This document shows positions 2,955 through 56,861 of a stretch of 64,000 nt of DNA, piece after piece. Source of the stretch: Vulcanimicrobiota bacterium (GTDB lineage: Bacteria > Vulcanimicrobiota > Vulcanimicrobiia > Vulcanimicrobiales > Vulcanimicrobiaceae); contig PMOS01000002.1 in the NCBI GenBank assembly GCA_003161435.1, positions 28,383 to 92,382 of the forward strand. The letters run 5' to 3'. The notes beneath the pieces are model-generated. The model had not been told where the DNA came from. It was given only the letters and a program-made list of their open reading frames with translations, and made no database searches. The first letter of the stretch is position 1. The number at the start of each line of letters is the position of its first letter. Made by a program: the position numbers and the translations under genes.

Positions 2955-2979
2955 GTTTAACCTAGCTTCCGCTGGGTAC
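2955..2979 (+). promoter_or_regulatory. sigma-B-like promoter GTTTAA-N13-GGGTAC
   Basis: Matches B. subtilis SigB consensus GTTTAA-N12-14-GGGTAT in 11 of 12 positions with legal spacing, about 43 nt upstream of the KGG-protein ATG. Confidence 0.5.
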
Positions 2980-3022
2980 AGAGCAGTCGGTGGGCCGACA
3001 GCTCAGGGGGATGATTCCAACA

Positions 3023-3253
3023 ATGGCGAGCAACGAAAATCTGACGACGACGACGGGCGGCGGCATGAGTGTCCGCGAGGCGGGCAAACGCGGCGGCGAT
3101 CGCGTCAAAGCGAAGTACGGCTCCGAGTTCTACGAAGCCATCGGACGCAAAGGCGGCGAGGCGACGAAGAGCAAGTACGGACCGACGTTCTACGAAGAGA
3201 TCGGCGCCAAGGGCGGCCAGAAGCTGAAACGCACGACGAAAACGGCCGGCTGA
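3023..3253 (+). CDS. KGG/Em-like (LEA group 1-like) stress repeat protein, two repeats
   Basis: 20-residue motif GG(D/E)xxKxKYGxxFYExIGxK repeated; ATG at 3023 more plausible than ORF-track start 2990. Confidence 0.85.
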   Translation: MASNENLTTTTGGGMSVREAGKRGGDRVKAKYGSEFYEAIGRKGGEATKSKYGPTFYEEIGAKGGQKLKRTTKTAG

Positions 3254-3256
3254 CGC

Positions 3257-3583
3257 ATGGCCGACCCCAAGCAGGCCGAGGTCAAGGAGCGGACGGAAAA
3301 GGTCGACGGGGAGATGTCGGTTCGAGAAGCCGGCAAAAAGGGTGGCGATACGGTTCGTGACCGATACGGTTCGGGATTCTACGAAGAGATCGGACGCAAA
3401 GGCGGACAAGCAACGCGCGAGCGCCACGGTGCGGAGTTCTACGAGGCGATCGGTCAAAAAGGCGGCAAGGTCGTCAAAGAAAAGTACGGCCCGAACTTCT
3501 ACGAGCAGATCGGTCACAAGGGTGGTCAAAAGGTCAAGAAGCTGATCGCCGACGCGAAAAAGGCCTTGCAGGGCGAAACGTAG
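3257..3583 (+). CDS. KGG/Em-like (LEA group 1-like) stress repeat protein, three repeats
   Basis: Three consecutive 20-mers: GGDTVRDRYGSGFYEEIGRK / GGQATRERHGAEFYEAIGQK / GGKVVKEKYGPNFYEQIGHK. Confidence 0.9.
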   Translation: MADPKQAEVKERTEKVDGEMSVREAGKKGGDTVRDRYGSGFYEEIGRKGGQATRERHGAEFYEAIGQKGGKVVKEKYGPNFYEQIGHKGGQKVKKLIADAKKALQGET

Positions 3584-3607
3584 CGCCCGACCGACCTGAT
3601 TCCGAAA

Positions 3608-3645
3608 CCGCGTGGCGTCGCCGCAACGACGCCGCGCGGTTTTTT
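3608..3645 (+). terminator. Rho-independent terminator
   Basis: 13-bp stem CCGCGTGGCGTCG/CGACGCCGCGCGG (one G.U), 6-nt loop, then TTTTTT. Confidence 0.9.
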
Positions 3646-3666
3646 GTTCGGCGCACCCGATGCGCA

Positions 3667-6691: not shown

Positions 6692-6859
6692 CTATTCCGT
6701 GTCGCAGGGTGGGTGGCCGCAGGCGCACGTTGTTTCGTTCTCTTCGTCGGTCGAATCGCGGCTTTCGCAGATTTCGCTGCAGTACGCTGCGCCTTCGAGG
6801 CCGCCGGTGACGGTGCAGTTGCACTCTTGGTATTCGCAGGGCTGGGTGTAGGTACTCAC
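6692..6859 (-). CDS. small bacterial metallothionein-like protein (55 aa)
   Basis: GTG start with AAGGAG SD; MSTYTQPCEYQECNCTVTGGLEGAAYCSEICESRDSTDEENETTCACGHPPCDTE; C..C.C...YCSE.C...C.CGH..C pattern of prokaryotic metallothioneins (SmtA/BmtA type); absent from the supplied ORF track. Confidence 0.8.
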   Translation of the reverse strand: MSTYTQPCEYQECNCTVTGGLEGAAYCSEICESRDSTDEENETTCACGHPPCDTE

Positions 6860-6897: not shown

Positions 6898-9426
6898 TCA
6901 GGGGATCCCGCTGCCGCTGGTGAACGCCGACGAGGCGAAGCTTTGCGGGATGATCGAGCTGAGCGACGTCTGACCCAGACCGAAGTTCAGCGCGTGTGAC
7001 GGGAAGGCGAGGATGTCGACGGTTCCCGTGAACTGCTTGAGATCTTCGTTGTAGGCCAGCCGGACCTCGTAGCACTCGCCGATGACGTGACGGTAGTAGA
7101 TGTTCTTGCTCACGAGGCGGCCGCGAGCTTTCCAGTTGATGAAGGTCGCGAACTGCAGGTCGCTCTCGTAGCCGAACGGCGTCGAGAATTGCACGTTGGT
7201 TTGGTCGAAGCCGTTGCCGGGCCCGGGCGTGAAGTTGCCGCCGACGGTGACCGTCGAGCGCGGCGACGGGCGCGAGGTGAGCTGGTAGCCGACGGCCTGC
7301 GCCTGGCGGTTGAAGAACGTCGTCGCGGTCAGTGCCAGCGAGTAGATGTCGCGGTTGAAGATGGTCAGCACGTCGTTGGCTTGTTTCGTTCCGTCGCCGA
7401 GCACGTCGATCGACTTGAACGGTTCGGCGAGCGGGCCGTTCACGTGCGATGCGTTGTACGAGATCACGTTGATGACGTGTCCGAAGAGCGGCGTGGTGAA
7501 CGTCGCCTCCTGTCCGATCTGCGCTTTGAGATCGCCCGTACCATAAGCGTCCTGCTGCACGGTGATCTGGCCCGAGAAGTCGCTGCCGAAGAAGTGCGCC
7601 AGGCCCGGGCCGATCTGAATGCGCGCTTCTGCGCGCGACGTGCGCAGTCCGGTCGGAGGCCCGTTGGGCGCCGCTTGCGGATCGTCGTAGATGCCCAACG
7701 TGTACTGCGCGGTGATCGGAATCGCTTTGAAGCCCGGGATCAATGCGTCGTGCGGCCGGATCGCGAGCTCGGGTTCTTTCTGCACGTTGGTCGGCGTGCT
7801 GGTATCGTAGCGGTCGAAGGTCAGGTCATAGTCGTACGACCTTCCCGAGTAGTGCGTCAGCGTCTCGTAGTGCAGCGTCGTCGTACCCGGAAAGCCGACG
7901 TTCTGGCTGGTCGTGTACGAGACGGTCGTGTCGTTGGTGAAGGTGTTCGAGAACTGGCGGTGATCGCTCGCGCCGTAGTCGTCGGTCGACGCCTGCGATC
8001 CGGTCGACGAACGGTGGAAGCTGTAATTCTGCCGGTCGCCCTTTGCATCGCCGTGGTCGACGGCGGCGGTGAGGTCGTACTGCGCCGGGAGCGAGACGAG
8101 CGGACCGTAATTGTCCGTGTAGTTCAACCCGAACTGCCCGTGCAGCGAGCGCGAGAACGCCTCTTGATCTTGAATCGAAAGGTTGCTGTTGCTGCCGCCG
8201 CCGGTCTTGCTGTTCAGATGGTAGAAGTTGATGTCGGTCTGCCGTCGCCCGTCCTTTCGGCGGATCGTGCCGACGTATCCCAGGCCGAGGCCGATGCGCG
8301 TGTACTCTTCGACGCGGTAGTAGCCGTAATAATAGTCGCTCGGCGAGAACCCGATCCGCGCCTTGATGTAGAACCCCTCGGCGGAATCGTATCCGATCAG
8401 CGGCAGGAAACCCGGGTTTCGGCGCGACCCGGGCTCGTCCTGACGCAGTGAGATGATGGCGATCGGCAAGTAGAAGACCGCCAGCGCGCCGAGGAACAGG
8501 ACCGCCGAGTGCGCGACGGCCTTGTCGCCCGGATAAACGTCGAGCGTCTTGGACTCGAGGTGATAGCCGCCGCGAGGGTTTTCGCAGGTCGTAATGTTGG
8601 CGCGCTCGACGTGCGTCACGCCGTTGCGGTCTGTCACCATCGACGTGCCGGCGAAGTGGAGCCGCCCTTGCTCGACGCCTTGCGTCGACTCGCCGTGGCC
8701 GCGCAGGAGCGTCGCCTTCTGGGTCGTCGCGTCGAAGCGGATCGCGTCGGCGAACAGTCGCGTGTCGCCCGCGCGATTGATGACGAACGTGTGTCCGGTG
8801 ACGTCGATGTAGCGCTGGCCGTCGTAGTGAGCGTGGTCGCCGCCGAGCACGCCGTCCTGATAGAAGACGTTGACGTTGCCGTCGAGGTCGAACGGTTGCC
8901 CCGGCTTGTCGACGCCGGTCAGCTTGTCACCCAGGATCGCGTAGGTGTTCGGGTCGAGGATCTCGCCGGCGGCGGGCGACGGTGACGGTGACGGCGAGGT
9001 CAAGCCGATCGGTCCGGCGCTCGCGCTCGAGGCCGGGATCGGCGAGACGGCGGGCGGCGCGGTCTGCTGGTTGATCATCATCGGCCCGGGCGATCCGCTC
9101 GGACCGACCGAAGGCGAGGGGGCCGGCGGCGGCGTCACACCGGGCGACTGCGAGGCGGGCGGCGGGATGAGGATTTGCGGACCGGTCGGGGCACGCGGCG
9201 GCCCGACGTACGGCGCGAGCGTCGGCGAGGCGCTCGTCACCGGCGACGCGACCGGCTCGGGCGACTCCGTGACCTGGGCGATCGGCGTGCCGCAGCTTTG
9301 CTGCATCAGGGCGAGCGCGTGCGCGGTGTCGGCGTCGTCGTCGGCCCAGGCGAGCGAAGGAAGCGCAGATAGCGCAAACGAGAGCGCGACGGCGGTCACG
9401 CTCGCGCGCTGGACCAGGCGGCTCAT
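6898..9426 (-). CDS. lptD: LptD/OstA-like outer-membrane LPS assembly protein
   Basis: Signal peptide, Pro/Ser-rich linker, OstA-like domain (DGNVNVFYQDGVLGGDHAHYDG), long beta-barrel-like C-terminus; ATGA overlap with LptF/G-like gene. Confidence 0.7.
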   Translation of the reverse strand: MSRLVQRASVTAVALSFALSALPSLAWADDDADTAHALALMQQSCGTPIAQVTESPEPVASPVTSASPTLAPYVGPPRAPTGPQILIPPPASQSPGVTPPPAPSPSVGPSGSPGPMMINQQTAPPAVSPIPASSASAGPIGLTSPSPSPSPAAGEILDPNTYAILGDKLTGVDKPGQPFDLDGNVNVFYQDGVLGGDHAHYDGQRYIDVTGHTFVINRAGDTRLFADAIRFDATTQKATLLRGHGESTQGVEQGRLHFAGTSMVTDRNGVTHVERANITTCENPRGGYHLESKTLDVYPGDKAVAHSAVLFLGALAVFYLPIAIISLRQDEPGSRRNPGFLPLIGYDSAEGFYIKARIGFSPSDYYYGYYRVEEYTRIGLGLGYVGTIRRKDGRRQTDINFYHLNSKTGGGSNSNLSIQDQEAFSRSLHGQFGLNYTDNYGPLVSLPAQYDLTAAVDHGDAKGDRQNYSFHRSSTGSQASTDDYGASDHRQFSNTFTNDTTVSYTTSQNVGFPGTTTLHYETLTHYSGRSYDYDLTFDRYDTSTPTNVQKEPELAIRPHDALIPGFKAIPITAQYTLGIYDDPQAAPNGPPTGLRTSRAEARIQIGPGLAHFFGSDFSGQITVQQDAYGTGDLKAQIGQEATFTTPLFGHVINVISYNASHVNGPLAEPFKSIDVLGDGTKQANDVLTIFNRDIYSLALTATTFFNRQAQAVGYQLTSRPSPRSTVTVGGNFTPGPGNGFDQTNVQFSTPFGYESDLQFATFINWKARGRLVSKNIYYRHVIGECYEVRLAYNEDLKQFTGTVDILAFPSHALNFGLGQTSLSSIIPQSFASSAFTSGSGIP

Positions 9427-52618: not shown

Positions 52619-53218
52619 TTACGGCCGATCCGCAGTATTGCTGCGCGCGGCCTCGGTGTCGCGGACTGCGCGCAAGAGCATGAAGCCGAACGTCACGAAG
52701 AGCCCGCCGACGACGACCGCATAGGCGCCGAACACGTAGAGGATCCCGACGATGCTCAAGTCGGTCCAGTCGAGCACCGCGATCCCCGCGCAACACGAGA
52801 GCAGCCCGACGGCGCCGATCATCCAGGCCAGCGCGGGGACGCGCGGCATCAGCACGGCGGCGCCGATCTCGAGCACGCCGGTGGCGATCGCCCAATTCGA
52901 GACGATGACGATCAGCGTCGCGGTGGTCGGCGCCCAGACGATAAGGGCGAAGGCGACGATCGCGTCGACCAAACCGTCGGCGCCGAACAGCACGCGCGAG
53001 CGGCGCGGGATCGAAAGGGTGAAGGCGAGTGTGACCGCGAGCAGGCCGTCGAGGACCAAGTAGCCGACCAGCAGCGCTTTGCCGACCGCCGCCGAGATCG
53101 TCACCGCCGCGATCCCCGCTGCGACGGCGATGAGCCCGCGCAGCATCAGGGCATACCAGCGGCGCCGGCCGGTGGGCGTGAATCCCAATCCCATGCCGCC
53201 GGGAGTTCGCGCCGTCAC
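52619..53218 (-). CDS. HdeD family acid-resistance-type membrane protein
   Basis: Six-TM HdeD/DUF308-like pattern; GTG 53218 overlaps stop of the SpoIIE gene. Confidence 0.75.
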   Translation of the reverse strand: MTARTPGGMGLGFTPTGRRRWYALMLRGLIAVAAGIAAVTISAAVGKALLVGYLVLDGLLAVTLAFTLSIPRRSRVLFGADGLVDAIVAFALIVWAPTTATLIVIVSNWAIATGVLEIGAAVLMPRVPALAWMIGAVGLLSCCAGIAVLDWTDLSIVGILYVFGAYAVVVGGLFVTFGFMLLRAVRDTEAARSNTADRP

Positions 53219-55575
53219 GCCGCGCGCGCCTTGCGGGTCACCGGCAGGACCGCGCGCACGTGGGTGCCCTGACGCGACGCGTTGACGTTGACCCGGCGAG
53301 AGAGCGCGTCGACGATGAAGAAGCCGCGTCCGTTCTCGCTCATGCCGTCCTCGGGGAGGTGCAGCGACGGCGCGAATCCCCGCCCGCGGTCGAGCACGTG
53401 CAGCACCAGGTCGGAACCCTGCCATTCGGCGCGCATCTCGATCGGACCGGGCGCGTGGCGTACGACGTTGCCGACGAGCTCACCGAAGATCACCGTCGCG
53501 CTGTACACGTCGCCGTCGGCGACGTTCTCGAGCCAGCGGCCGAACGCGCCGCGGGCCGGTTCGGCTTCCATCGCGTCGGGCGCTTCGAACGTCCAGCCTT
53601 CGCGGCGTCCGAACGCCAGCGTGATCACCGCGACGTCGTCGTGCACGCGGCGGCCGGCCAGCACCGCGTCGCGCAGATAGCGTGCCGGGTTGGTCGATGC
53701 GTACGCCGCTTCATCGCGCAGCGCTTCGAGGATCAGCCGCTCGCCCTCGATCGGATCGCGGTCGAACTCGGTCAAACCGTCGGTGTACATCGCGATCAGC
53801 GAACCGTAGGCCAGCGGCGCCGCTTCGACGCGGGGCAGCGTGTTGGCGGGCCACGTTCCGAGCGGCGGCGCAGGCTCGACGTTGAGCAGCCGGGTGCGTC
53901 CGGACAGCGGCAGCCGCAACGCGGCCGGCGGATGGCCGGCGCTCGCATACCGAATGCGCGATTCGCGGATGTCCATGATCGCCACGAACGCGGTCGCCGT
54001 GAGATCGGGGTTCTCTGCTTTGAGCGCGGCGTCGACGGCTTTGAGGATCTCGGCCGGCTCCTGTCCGCGTTGCGCGGCGAAGCGAATTCCATGACGGATC
54101 AGCGACATCGTCGCCGCAGCGTTCACGCCTTTGCCGATCACGTCACCGACCGAGAGCACGAGACGCCATGGCGAGATCTCGAATGCGTCGTACCAGTCGC
54201 CGCCGACGTTGACGCCGACTTCGGCAGCCTGATAGATCGCCTTGATCTCGATCCCCGGTGGCGCGGGGAGACGGCTCGGCAGTGCCGATGCCTGAAACGT
54301 CTCGGCCAGGCGGCGTTCGCTCTCGCGCGTCTGCGCGCCGTCCATCGCCCCGGAGAGCCGGCCGGCGAGCAGTTGCGCCGTGCGCAGGTCTTGCGCGTCG
54401 AACGGCCGGCTGCTGTCGTAACGCGCGAGGTGGAGTGCGCCGAAGGCCTGCCCGCGCGCGCTGAGTGGTGCGATGATGACCGAGCTCGTGCCGAGCCGAT
54501 CGAGCAACGCGAGGTGGCCTTCGTCCTGTGCGATCGCAGCCCGCTCGGCGTCGGCGACGTGCTCGATCAAGCGCGCTTCGTCGCGGGTCATCACCACGCG
54601 CACCGGATCCGTCGCGCGCGGCGGATAGCGCCGGAGCATCGGCCGAATCGTGCGCTCGCGCTCGGCGTCGCGCGAGCCCAGCACCGAGATCTCCATGCGC
54701 CCGTCGGCGCCCGGGCGATAGATCGTGCACGTCTCGGCCAGCTCGCGCACGGCGAGCTCGCTGACCGCGGCGAGGGTCGCGTCGATCTCGCGTTCGCTCG
54801 CGATGATCGCGGTCGCGTCGAGCAAGAGCGCCATCGCGTCCTCGGAGCGCTTGCGCTCTTCGATGTCGGTCGCGCTGCCGAACCAGCGAATCGGCGTTCC
54901 GCCGGCGTCGCGCATCGGCTCGGCGCGCGCGAGGTACCAGCGATATGCACCGTCGTGCCGGCGCAGCCGGTACTGGAACTCGAAGCTCGTGCCGTGGGCG
55001 AGCGCGTACGCGTACGCGTCGCGCGCCGGCGACGCGTCGTCGGGATGCAGGACGCGCGCCCAGTCGATCCCGGTCTGAGGGTCGGGCGTGACGCCGGTGA
55101 AGTCGATCATCCGCCGGTTCCAGAACTCGACCAAACCGTCGGGACGCGACACCCAGATCAGCTGCGGTGCCGTCTCCACGAAGCCGCGCATCCACTCCGC
55201 ACTCTCGCGCAAGCCGTCGATGTCGACGCCGGTTCCGACCCAGCGCGTGACGGCGCCCGCGGCATCGTGCAGCGGCGCGATGCGCCCCAAGAACCAGCGG
55301 TAGCGATCGTCGCGGCCGCGCAGCCGGAACTCCACCTCGCACGGCTCTTTCGTTGCGAACGCTGCGTTCCAGCGCGCCGTCACGGCGTCGCGGTCGTCGG
55401 GATGAACGAGGGCCACGCGATGCTCGTTCGCGAGCGCTTGCTCTTCGCTCAACCCCGTATAGTCGCGGAACTGCTGGTTGTTGTACTCGATGCTGCCGTC
55501 GGCGCGAACGACCCAGACGTGGTACGGCACGCCTTCGGCGATGGTTGCCGCCAGATCGGTGGGGTCGGTCGTCAC
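53215..55575 (-). CDS. PAS-PAS-GAF-SpoIIE(PP2C)-HATPase regulatory phosphatase/kinase fusion
   Basis: Two PAS (RWFGSATDIEERK), GAF, PP2C (VGGDWYDAFEI, SVGDVIGKGVNAAATMS, YTDGLTEFDR) and C-terminal HATPase (FGELVGNVVRHAPG, DRGRGF). Confidence 0.92.
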   Translation of the reverse strand: MTTDPTDLAATIAEGVPYHVWVVRADGSIEYNNQQFRDYTGLSEEQALANEHRVALVHPDDRDAVTARWNAAFATKEPCEVEFRLRGRDDRYRWFLGRIAPLHDAAGAVTRWVGTGVDIDGLRESAEWMRGFVETAPQLIWVSRPDGLVEFWNRRMIDFTGVTPDPQTGIDWARVLHPDDASPARDAYAYALAHGTSFEFQYRLRRHDGAYRWYLARAEPMRDAGGTPIRWFGSATDIEERKRSEDAMALLLDATAIIASEREIDATLAAVSELAVRELAETCTIYRPGADGRMEISVLGSRDAERERTIRPMLRRYPPRATDPVRVVMTRDEARLIEHVADAERAAIAQDEGHLALLDRLGTSSVIIAPLSARGQAFGALHLARYDSSRPFDAQDLRTAQLLAGRLSGAMDGAQTRESERRLAETFQASALPSRLPAPPGIEIKAIYQAAEVGVNVGGDWYDAFEISPWRLVLSVGDVIGKGVNAAATMSLIRHGIRFAAQRGQEPAEILKAVDAALKAENPDLTATAFVAIMDIRESRIRYASAGHPPAALRLPLSGRTRLLNVEPAPPLGTWPANTLPRVEAAPLAYGSLIAMYTDGLTEFDRDPIEGERLILEALRDEAAYASTNPARYLRDAVLAGRRVHDDVAVITLAFGRREGWTFEAPDAMEAEPARGAFGRWLENVADGDVYSATVIFGELVGNVVRHAPGPIEMRAEWQGSDLVLHVLDRGRGFAPSLHLPEDGMSENGRGFFIVDALSRRVNVNASRQGTHVRAVLPVTRKARAA

Positions 55576-55622
55576 GGCGACTCTCTTATCGCCGCCCCGC
55601 CGAAGCGCCTACGCGTCCCCCG

Positions 55623-55901
55623 TCAGCCGAGCTCCTCACGCTTGGTGACGATACGGAACGACGTGCTGAACCCGACGATCTCGAGCGTCCGGCGAACGTT
55701 GGGCGACGCGACCACCAGCGCGACGGTGCCGACCCGGCGACGCAGCAAAGCCAGCTCGTTCAAAGCAGTGGAGTCGAGATAGGTCACGTCTGAAAGATCG
55801 ACCACGGCCGGGCCGTCGATCGACGCAAACTTCGCCCGCAAGCTCGAAACGTTGCTGAGGTCGAGCTCGCCGGCGAGACGCACCGACGCGAGACTCTCCA
55901 T
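55623..55901 (-). CDS. STAS-domain anti-sigma-factor antagonist
   Basis: VRLAGELDLSNVSSL...VVDLSDVTYLDSTALNELALLRRR. Confidence 0.9.
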   Translation of the reverse strand: MESLASVRLAGELDLSNVSSLRAKFASIDGPAVVDLSDVTYLDSTALNELALLRRRVGTVALVVASPNVRRTLEIVGFSTSFRIVTKREELG

Positions 55902-55929
55902 ACGAAGTCCTCTCCCCGATTGGGCCGAT

Positions 55930-55958
55930 ATCGTACCATCGGAGCACCGGCTTGTCAG
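55930..55958 (-). promoter_or_regulatory. sigma-70-like promoter CTGACA-N17-TACGAT
   Basis: On minus strand upstream of the STAS gene; 17-nt spacer. Confidence 0.5.
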
Positions 55959-56007
55959 TGCGATATGACGCACTTCTCATTTGGATTGCACAGCAACCCA
56001 ATGGAGG

Positions 56008-56861
56008 CTACGCGCAGGCGCGGTAGTAGCGGCGGGCTCGGCTCAGAATCTCGCCGGCGTAGTCCGGCAAGTTGTTGCGCAGCCAGAGAATGACGGCCTC
56101 GCCGCGCGGGACGACCCCCACGACGGCCGGTAGTTCGCTTTCATCAACGGGCGCAGCCCGTCGGCCCGGGTACCGAGAACGTCGGCCATCGCACGCTCGA
56201 TCGCGCTCTCGAGGTTCTGTTCGCCCCCGGTCGGCACGAGGTGCGTGTGCGCGCAAAGCACCTGGTCGATTCCGGCGACGTGAAAGTCGTCGCCGAACAC
56301 GTCGATCGGATAGGCGCAGTAGAGCTCGAGCCGCTCCTCGGCGAGAAGCTCGTTCCACAGCCCCTCGAGCGCGATCGCGGCGGATTCGTGACCGGCCTGC
56401 CACAAAACTCCGACCATCTCGCCGTAGGCGCGGATCGAACCCCCGTCACTCCGGACGCTCGCCAGTGCCCCATTGACGGTTTCACGGAACAGTCCGGGAT
56501 CCGGCCTGCCGGCGACGAGAAAACGAGCAAGCGTATCGTGCGCATCGAGCAGCAACAACCGAGCGTCGCGAACCGCCGCTCCGGAGTCGACGCCCAGGCG
56601 TTCGAGCTCCGCGGCGAAGGCTGCCGCGTGCGCGCCGCTGGCGATGACGACCAACCCGTCACCCCGTTGCCATCCTTCGTGCAGATAGCGTCCAACGCTG
56701 CGCGCCAGAGACAACTCATCCGCGTCGTAGAGTTGGACGAAGTGAGACGGCGCGGGCACCTGCGGCGCCGTTCCCGAGGTCAGGAGCTGGGACAAGGGCT
56801 CTCTCGCTTGGGACTGGTCGCCGCGTACGCAGCGGCGACGCTCACAGGAAACGTTGCCCAT
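56008..56861 (-). CDS. MEDS-domain (DcmR sensory) protein with apparent frameshift
   Basis: HFVQLYDADELSLARSVGRYLHEGWQRGDGLVVIA...; reading continues sensibly in another frame after C5 run 56115-56119 (GVVPRGEAVILWLRNNLPDYAGEILSRARRYYRACA). Confidence 0.7.

Follow-up and report, generated by a model that had tools for sequence, protein, structure and literature searches.

A conserved SigB-type promoter and a SigB/F/G-family sigma factor very probably control KGG genes across a class of Vulcanimicrobiota

Results

A two-gene KGG operon follows a SigB-type site

The window analyzed here, a 64,000-nt stretch from the genome of a soil-dwelling member of the Vulcanimicrobiota, carries near its start two small forward-strand genes that were assigned from their open reading frames and Pfam matches. 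KGG protein 1 (KGG1, 76 aa; 3023..3253) belongs to PF10685, and KGG protein 2 (KGG2, 108 aa; 3257..3583) matches both PF10685 and the LEA_5/Em-like family PF00477. Against PF10685 they score 32.5 and 48.0 bits, respectively, above the Pfam gathering score of 20.4, and KGG2 lies above the LEA_5 (Em protein) cut-off as well. An intrinsic terminator follows on the same strand at 3604..3647, comprising a 17-bp GC-rich hairpin and then a T-run (-35.7 kcal/mol, z -5.25), while the region upstream of the genes is short and lies between divergent genes.

Sequence inspection and cross-locus comparison place a -35 element GTTTAA (2955..2960, +) and a -10 element GGGTAC (2974..2979, +) in this region. 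Positions 2955-2979 (+) read GTTTAA CCTAGCTTCCGCT GGGTAC, with an N13 spacer, and 43 nt separate the end of the -10 hexamer from the KGG1 ATG at 3023. The site is one base off GTTTAA/GGGTAT, exactly as the original prediction had described it. SigB promoters of B. subtilis have the form GTTTAA-N12..17-GGGTAT, and gsiB, which the prediction had invoked as a SigB-dependent gene, is indeed among the listed SigB genes and carries a near-consensus motif (PMC9847131); SigB-family promoters of Streptomyces coelicolor are of the GTTT..GGGTAC type (PMC8346170). The KGG site follows the SigB-dependent promoter pattern GTTTWW-N12..17-GGGWAW upstream of a start codon, apart from the last base of its -10 element, a C that departs from W as it does in several Streptomyces promoters.

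When the site is laid out with the geometry of S. aureus SigB, transcription would start at ~2986-2990, near 2988, and produce a KGG leader of ~35 nt. Within this leader, an AGGGGG-type stretch at 3004..3010 (+), conserved genus-wide, is the likely ribosome binding site. We also searched the region for a sigma-70-type promoter for the KGG operon; none was found, and such a promoter was rejected as its driver. The window holds two matches to GTTTN{13,17}GGGWA versus 0.65 expected from shuffling, and the single site, taken alone, is weak evidence.

The motif is conserved before KGG genes across genera

KGG2 relatives were detected in 55 of 60 related genomes. When the 30 best KGG2-relative loci were compared, GTTT-N14..16-GGGWA was present upstream in 29 of these 30 orthologous KGG loci and in 20 of 21 genera. 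At some loci the operon is reduced to a single gene, and there the motif precedes the remaining KGG gene. A second set, made up of named Candidatus Eremiobacterota / Vulcanimicrobiota genomes and overlapping the first, carried the motif within 400 nt upstream at 59 of 78 loci, versus 2 of 444 windows drawn from these loci as controls; the reversed pattern matched at 2 of 78 (Fisher p ~2e-58 for 59/78 against the controls, a value that overstates independence since the loci are related). At some KGG loci of the named set, such as those of genomes G026 and G031, a strict motif match is absent.

The distance from GTTT to GGGWA is 15 in 56 of 65 pairs; control distances are flat. These 56 main-spacing sites comprise 36 distinct 24-mers, with a purine after GTTT in every one (36/36) and a T before GGG in 28/36, neither position having been used for selection. 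The flanks and most spacer positions hold ~0.1-0.5 bits each in the across-genera alignment; within the genus of the window genome, the spacer of the KGG promoter is conserved too. In one closed 3.5-Mb genome (G005), GTTTA-N13..15-GGGTA occurs only twice, once before the KGG operon and once within what we take to be 16S rRNA sequence. Since the motif is found at 59/78 loci versus 2/444 windows, keeps one main spacing and sits among diverged spacers and flanks, chance does not account for it. The comparison turns a weak single site into a strong case for a conserved KGG promoter. The SigB-type site as promoter of a two-gene KGG operon, which the terminator would close, is well supported.

A second, unlinked KGG gene (G000:C13:97-384) is present in most relatives. 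No SigB-type motif was found upstream of it in its own family (f1), and it was rejected as a SigB target there; since the motif is absent, the gene probably is regulated differently in this family. In some class-level relatives (G041, G044, G045 and G048) the second KGG gene does carry the motif. KGG loci also occur in records titled Rhodospirillales, Proteobacteria, Armatimonadetes and Actinomycetota (L232, L269, L270 and L271). Of these, at least the Rhodospirillales-titled record (L232) contains a locus of the Eremiobacterota type, which may reflect a wrong title or a mixed bin.

The genome encodes one full SigB/F/G-family sigma factor beside RsbV- and RsbW-like partners

The genome to which the window belongs is a 3.83-Mb MAG, 83% complete, with 16 matches to sigma region 2. 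The product of C8:11931-12755 is its sole full SigB/SigF/SigG-family sigma factor, scoring 286.5 bits against TIGR02980, above the curated cut-off of 234.35; it misses the cut-off of the Bacillus SigB equivalog TIGR02941 (226.8 versus 315 bits). The C8 sigma factor is a member of the SigB/F/G subfamily that is not filed as a Bacillus SigB equivalog. Its gene (L043 8932-9759) is directly preceded by an RsbV-like STAS gene (L043 8154-8498) and an RsbW-like HATPase_c_2 gene (L043 ~8495-8929), both identified by profile matches, in the order rsbV-rsbW-sigB and on a contig other than that of the KGG window. Also upstream are a YtxH-like gene and another that weakly matches DUF948. Relatives of the C8 sigma factor (E <= 1e-40) are found in 58 of 59 genomes. 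A sigma factor of the SigB/SigF type and an RsbW-like kinase, both of which the original prediction had asked for, are present in one operon.

The sigB operon is preceded by the motif in G018, G021, G029 and G041. In the genus of the window genome, the sequence covered ahead of the sigB operon contained no SigB-type motif, and sigB autoregulation was rejected for this genus on the absence of a recognizable SigB-type promoter.

A motif-bearing PP2C-HATPase gene is a candidate regulator

The motif lies upstream of a PP2C-HATPase gene (C10:4133) in 9/9 genus orthologues found, as well as in G017 and G040, which stand for a further genus and a further family. It is kept in 8/9 before the divergent gene, which encodes a HAMP-repeat kinase, and a hemerythrin gene has it in three close orthologues and in G016. 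The spacing from GTTT to GGG is 15 in the KGG set, 16 in the PP2C set and mostly 17 in the hemerythrin set, all covered by the SigB spacing range (PMC9847131). An unusual trait of this genus is that the predicted SigB-type promoter belongs to a putative regulator of the sigma factor and not to the sigma operon. A STAS gene on C22 was rejected as a regulon member, the motif not being kept in relatives; the match before it is probably chance.

Several further observations concern this set of sites. Between the HAMP-repeat kinase and PP2C-HATPase genes (L279 2400-4140, G000:C10), SigB-type motifs stand back to back and are genus-conserved; the HAMP repeats of the C10 kinase show runs of N. The motif was also seen upstream of genes for recQ-like helicases, both within the own genus and in a second family of the class (G000, G007, G008 and the f3 genomes G045 and G049; loci L036 1501-1525 of G000:C34, L082 and L359), and ahead of a small CsbD/LEA-like gene, at a distance of 43 nt (L360, G048:C36). 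The window contains a 55-aa Cys-rich, metallothionein-like ORF at 6692-6859 (-) with CNC and CACGHPPC and with no Pfam match; on contig C13, a motif match is followed by a comparable Cys-rich ORF (L024).

The original prediction had pointed to a different regulator, the putative partner-switch module at 53215..56861 (-) of the window. Domain matches identify its MEDS, STAS and PAS/PAS/GAF/PP2C/HATPase genes, the last encoding a single protein that joins phosphatase and kinase-like domains. The PP2C, HATPase and STAS domains are the right parts for partner switching, but the module holds just one of the 12 full PP2C genes of the genome, which also has 16 HATPase_c_2 stretches over cut-off. A scan of the window gave no SigB-type motif upstream of or near the module, and the module is not linked to sigB. 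By contrast, the HATPase of C10 PP2C-HATPase scores 96.0 bits, like that of the C8 RsbW (94.2 bits), with the next at 57.5. These results leave the proposed role of the module unsupported, and it is unlikely to be the specific switch of the C8 sigma factor. Because it combines an upstream motif with a HATPase score near that of the C8 RsbW, C10 PP2C-HATPase would be the better candidate partner or regulator.

Promoter and sigma factor fit each other residue by base

The best solved relative of the C8 sigma factor is S. aureus SigB on its promoter (PDB 8X6G), with which it shares 95 of 221 aligned residues. In that protein, S235, Q236, M237 and R241 read GTTT, and R97, R100 and R110 read GGG (PMC11156646). 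All seven base-reading residues are identical in the C8 sigma factor and in 28/28 readable orthologues of the first set; in a more distant set they are complete in 16/18, and the two exceptions differ at S235 only. While every base-specific contact to GTTT and GGG is kept, the C8 sigma factor differs from S. aureus SigB by F79->R and F86->Y in the -11A pocket and by R244->Q at a backbone contact.

Several group-3 sigma factors are present in the genome, and the promoter could be real and yet be read by another of them, either L016 or a WhiG/FliA-like factor. L016, a diverged SigBFG-like protein encoded on contig C9, falls short of the SigBFG cut-off of 234 bits with a score of 147.9 bits, and it is without three of the seven readers, having H for R97, S for M237 and K for R241. 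The WhiG-like factor and L014 miss more of these residues than L016, and RpoD also differs at several of the seven, whereas orthologues of the C8 sigma factor retain the readers across motif-bearing genomes. Reading by another group-3 sigma factor is therefore very unlikely. Because the seven contact residues are identical in the C8 protein and differ in the other group-3 sigma factors and in RpoD, the promoter and the C8 sigma factor appear matched residue by base. For the original proposal that a general-stress sigma factor controls the KGG genes, the family sigma factor, its contact residues and the conserved promoter all stand, and on sequence grounds the control itself is well supported.

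The set of strict SigB-type promoters is small

Genome-wide counts, of the kind proposed with the original prediction, put motif frequency at background. The own genome gave 26 matches to GTTTN{13,17}GGGTA versus 31 for the reversed pattern, and motif counts over 52 genomes of the class were 145 versus 165, with no excess in either case; the own genus showed a mild excess (33 versus 16), and the controls for these bulk counts were uneven in four genomes. On these background-level counts, bulk enrichment was dropped as evidence, and a large SigB regulon is not supported. Since a genome-wide excess is absent, the set of strict promoters would be small, with conserved motifs at several genes: KGG, PP2C-HATPase, HAMP kinase and hemerythrin, and the sigB operon in some lineages. 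The background counts, the short region between divergent genes and the spacer conservation within the genus would also suit a motif that is chance, or is kept by overlapping coding sequence or by a protein-binding site unrelated to sigma, but this is scarcely credible and largely refuted by the locus counts and spacing conservation, as GTTTR and TGGGWA hold at one spacing across genera in which spacer and flanks vary, and the motif remains just ahead of the first KGG gene despite loss of one operon gene.

Discussion

Our results make it highly likely that the KGG operon is read by the C8 SigB/F/G sigma factor, under partner-switch control and as part of a small regulon. More broadly, a stress sigma factor and a SigB-type promoter very probably control the KGG genes, with the wiring conserved across the class. 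From promoter conservation, the sigma factor and its partner genes, contact-residue identity and the motif at other genes, we infer the following mechanism. In the unstressed cell, the RsbW-like kinase, encoded just before the sigma factor, presumably holds it. A PP2C phosphatase, acting upon an inducing stress, would remove the phosphate from the RsbV-like STAS protein, and the latter would then take RsbW off the sigma factor. The released C8 sigma factor, with RNA polymerase, would bind the SigB-type site as the KGG operon promoter, and transcription of the operon would run from ~2988 as far as the terminator at ~3645. The products would be small, hydrophilic KGG/LEA-like proteins with a protective, seed-protein-like role. 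The same sigma factor would drive the PP2C-HATPase, divergent HAMP-repeat kinase and hemerythrin genes, and may in this way provide feedback to a regulator of the switch that controls it. Tentatively, and with the balance slightly against it, we suggest that in the own genus the sigma factor drives the fused PP2C-HATPase (phosphatase-kinase) and HAMP-repeat sensor kinase genes, from SigB-type promoters set back to back, and not its own operon.

The system is of a known kind. It resembles the B. subtilis SigB regulon in promoter type, in the rsbV-rsbW-sigB order and in having a KGG-repeat gene as a target (gsiB there). It differs in that rsbX was not seen beside sigB, sigB of the own genus is not recognizably autoregulated, strict promoters are few and a fused PP2C-HATPase gene appears to be under the same promoter type. 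The GC-rich genome, the GTTT..GGGTAC promoters and the 12 PP2C genes recall Streptomyces coelicolor. Streptomyces genomes carry many PP2C/HATPase genes. S. coelicolor has nine SigB-family sigma paralogues (PMC8346170), versus one full member here.

Eremiobacterota (Vulcanimicrobiota, WPS-2) is a little-studied phylum that is widespread in oligotrophic soils. Our literature search on it found no paper on sigma-factor regulation and no earlier description of such a system, and the paper on the first Eremiobacterota isolate mentions neither sigma factors nor stress. What the analysis yields is testable in cultivated species: the promoter, the sigma factor with its likely antagonists, and a short list of targets. 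It points, outside Bacillus, to a SigB-type control of KGG proteins that is conserved across the class. If the suggested feedback is true, it would run via the regulator and not the sigma factor, and would represent a rewired general stress switch of the Eremiobacterota.
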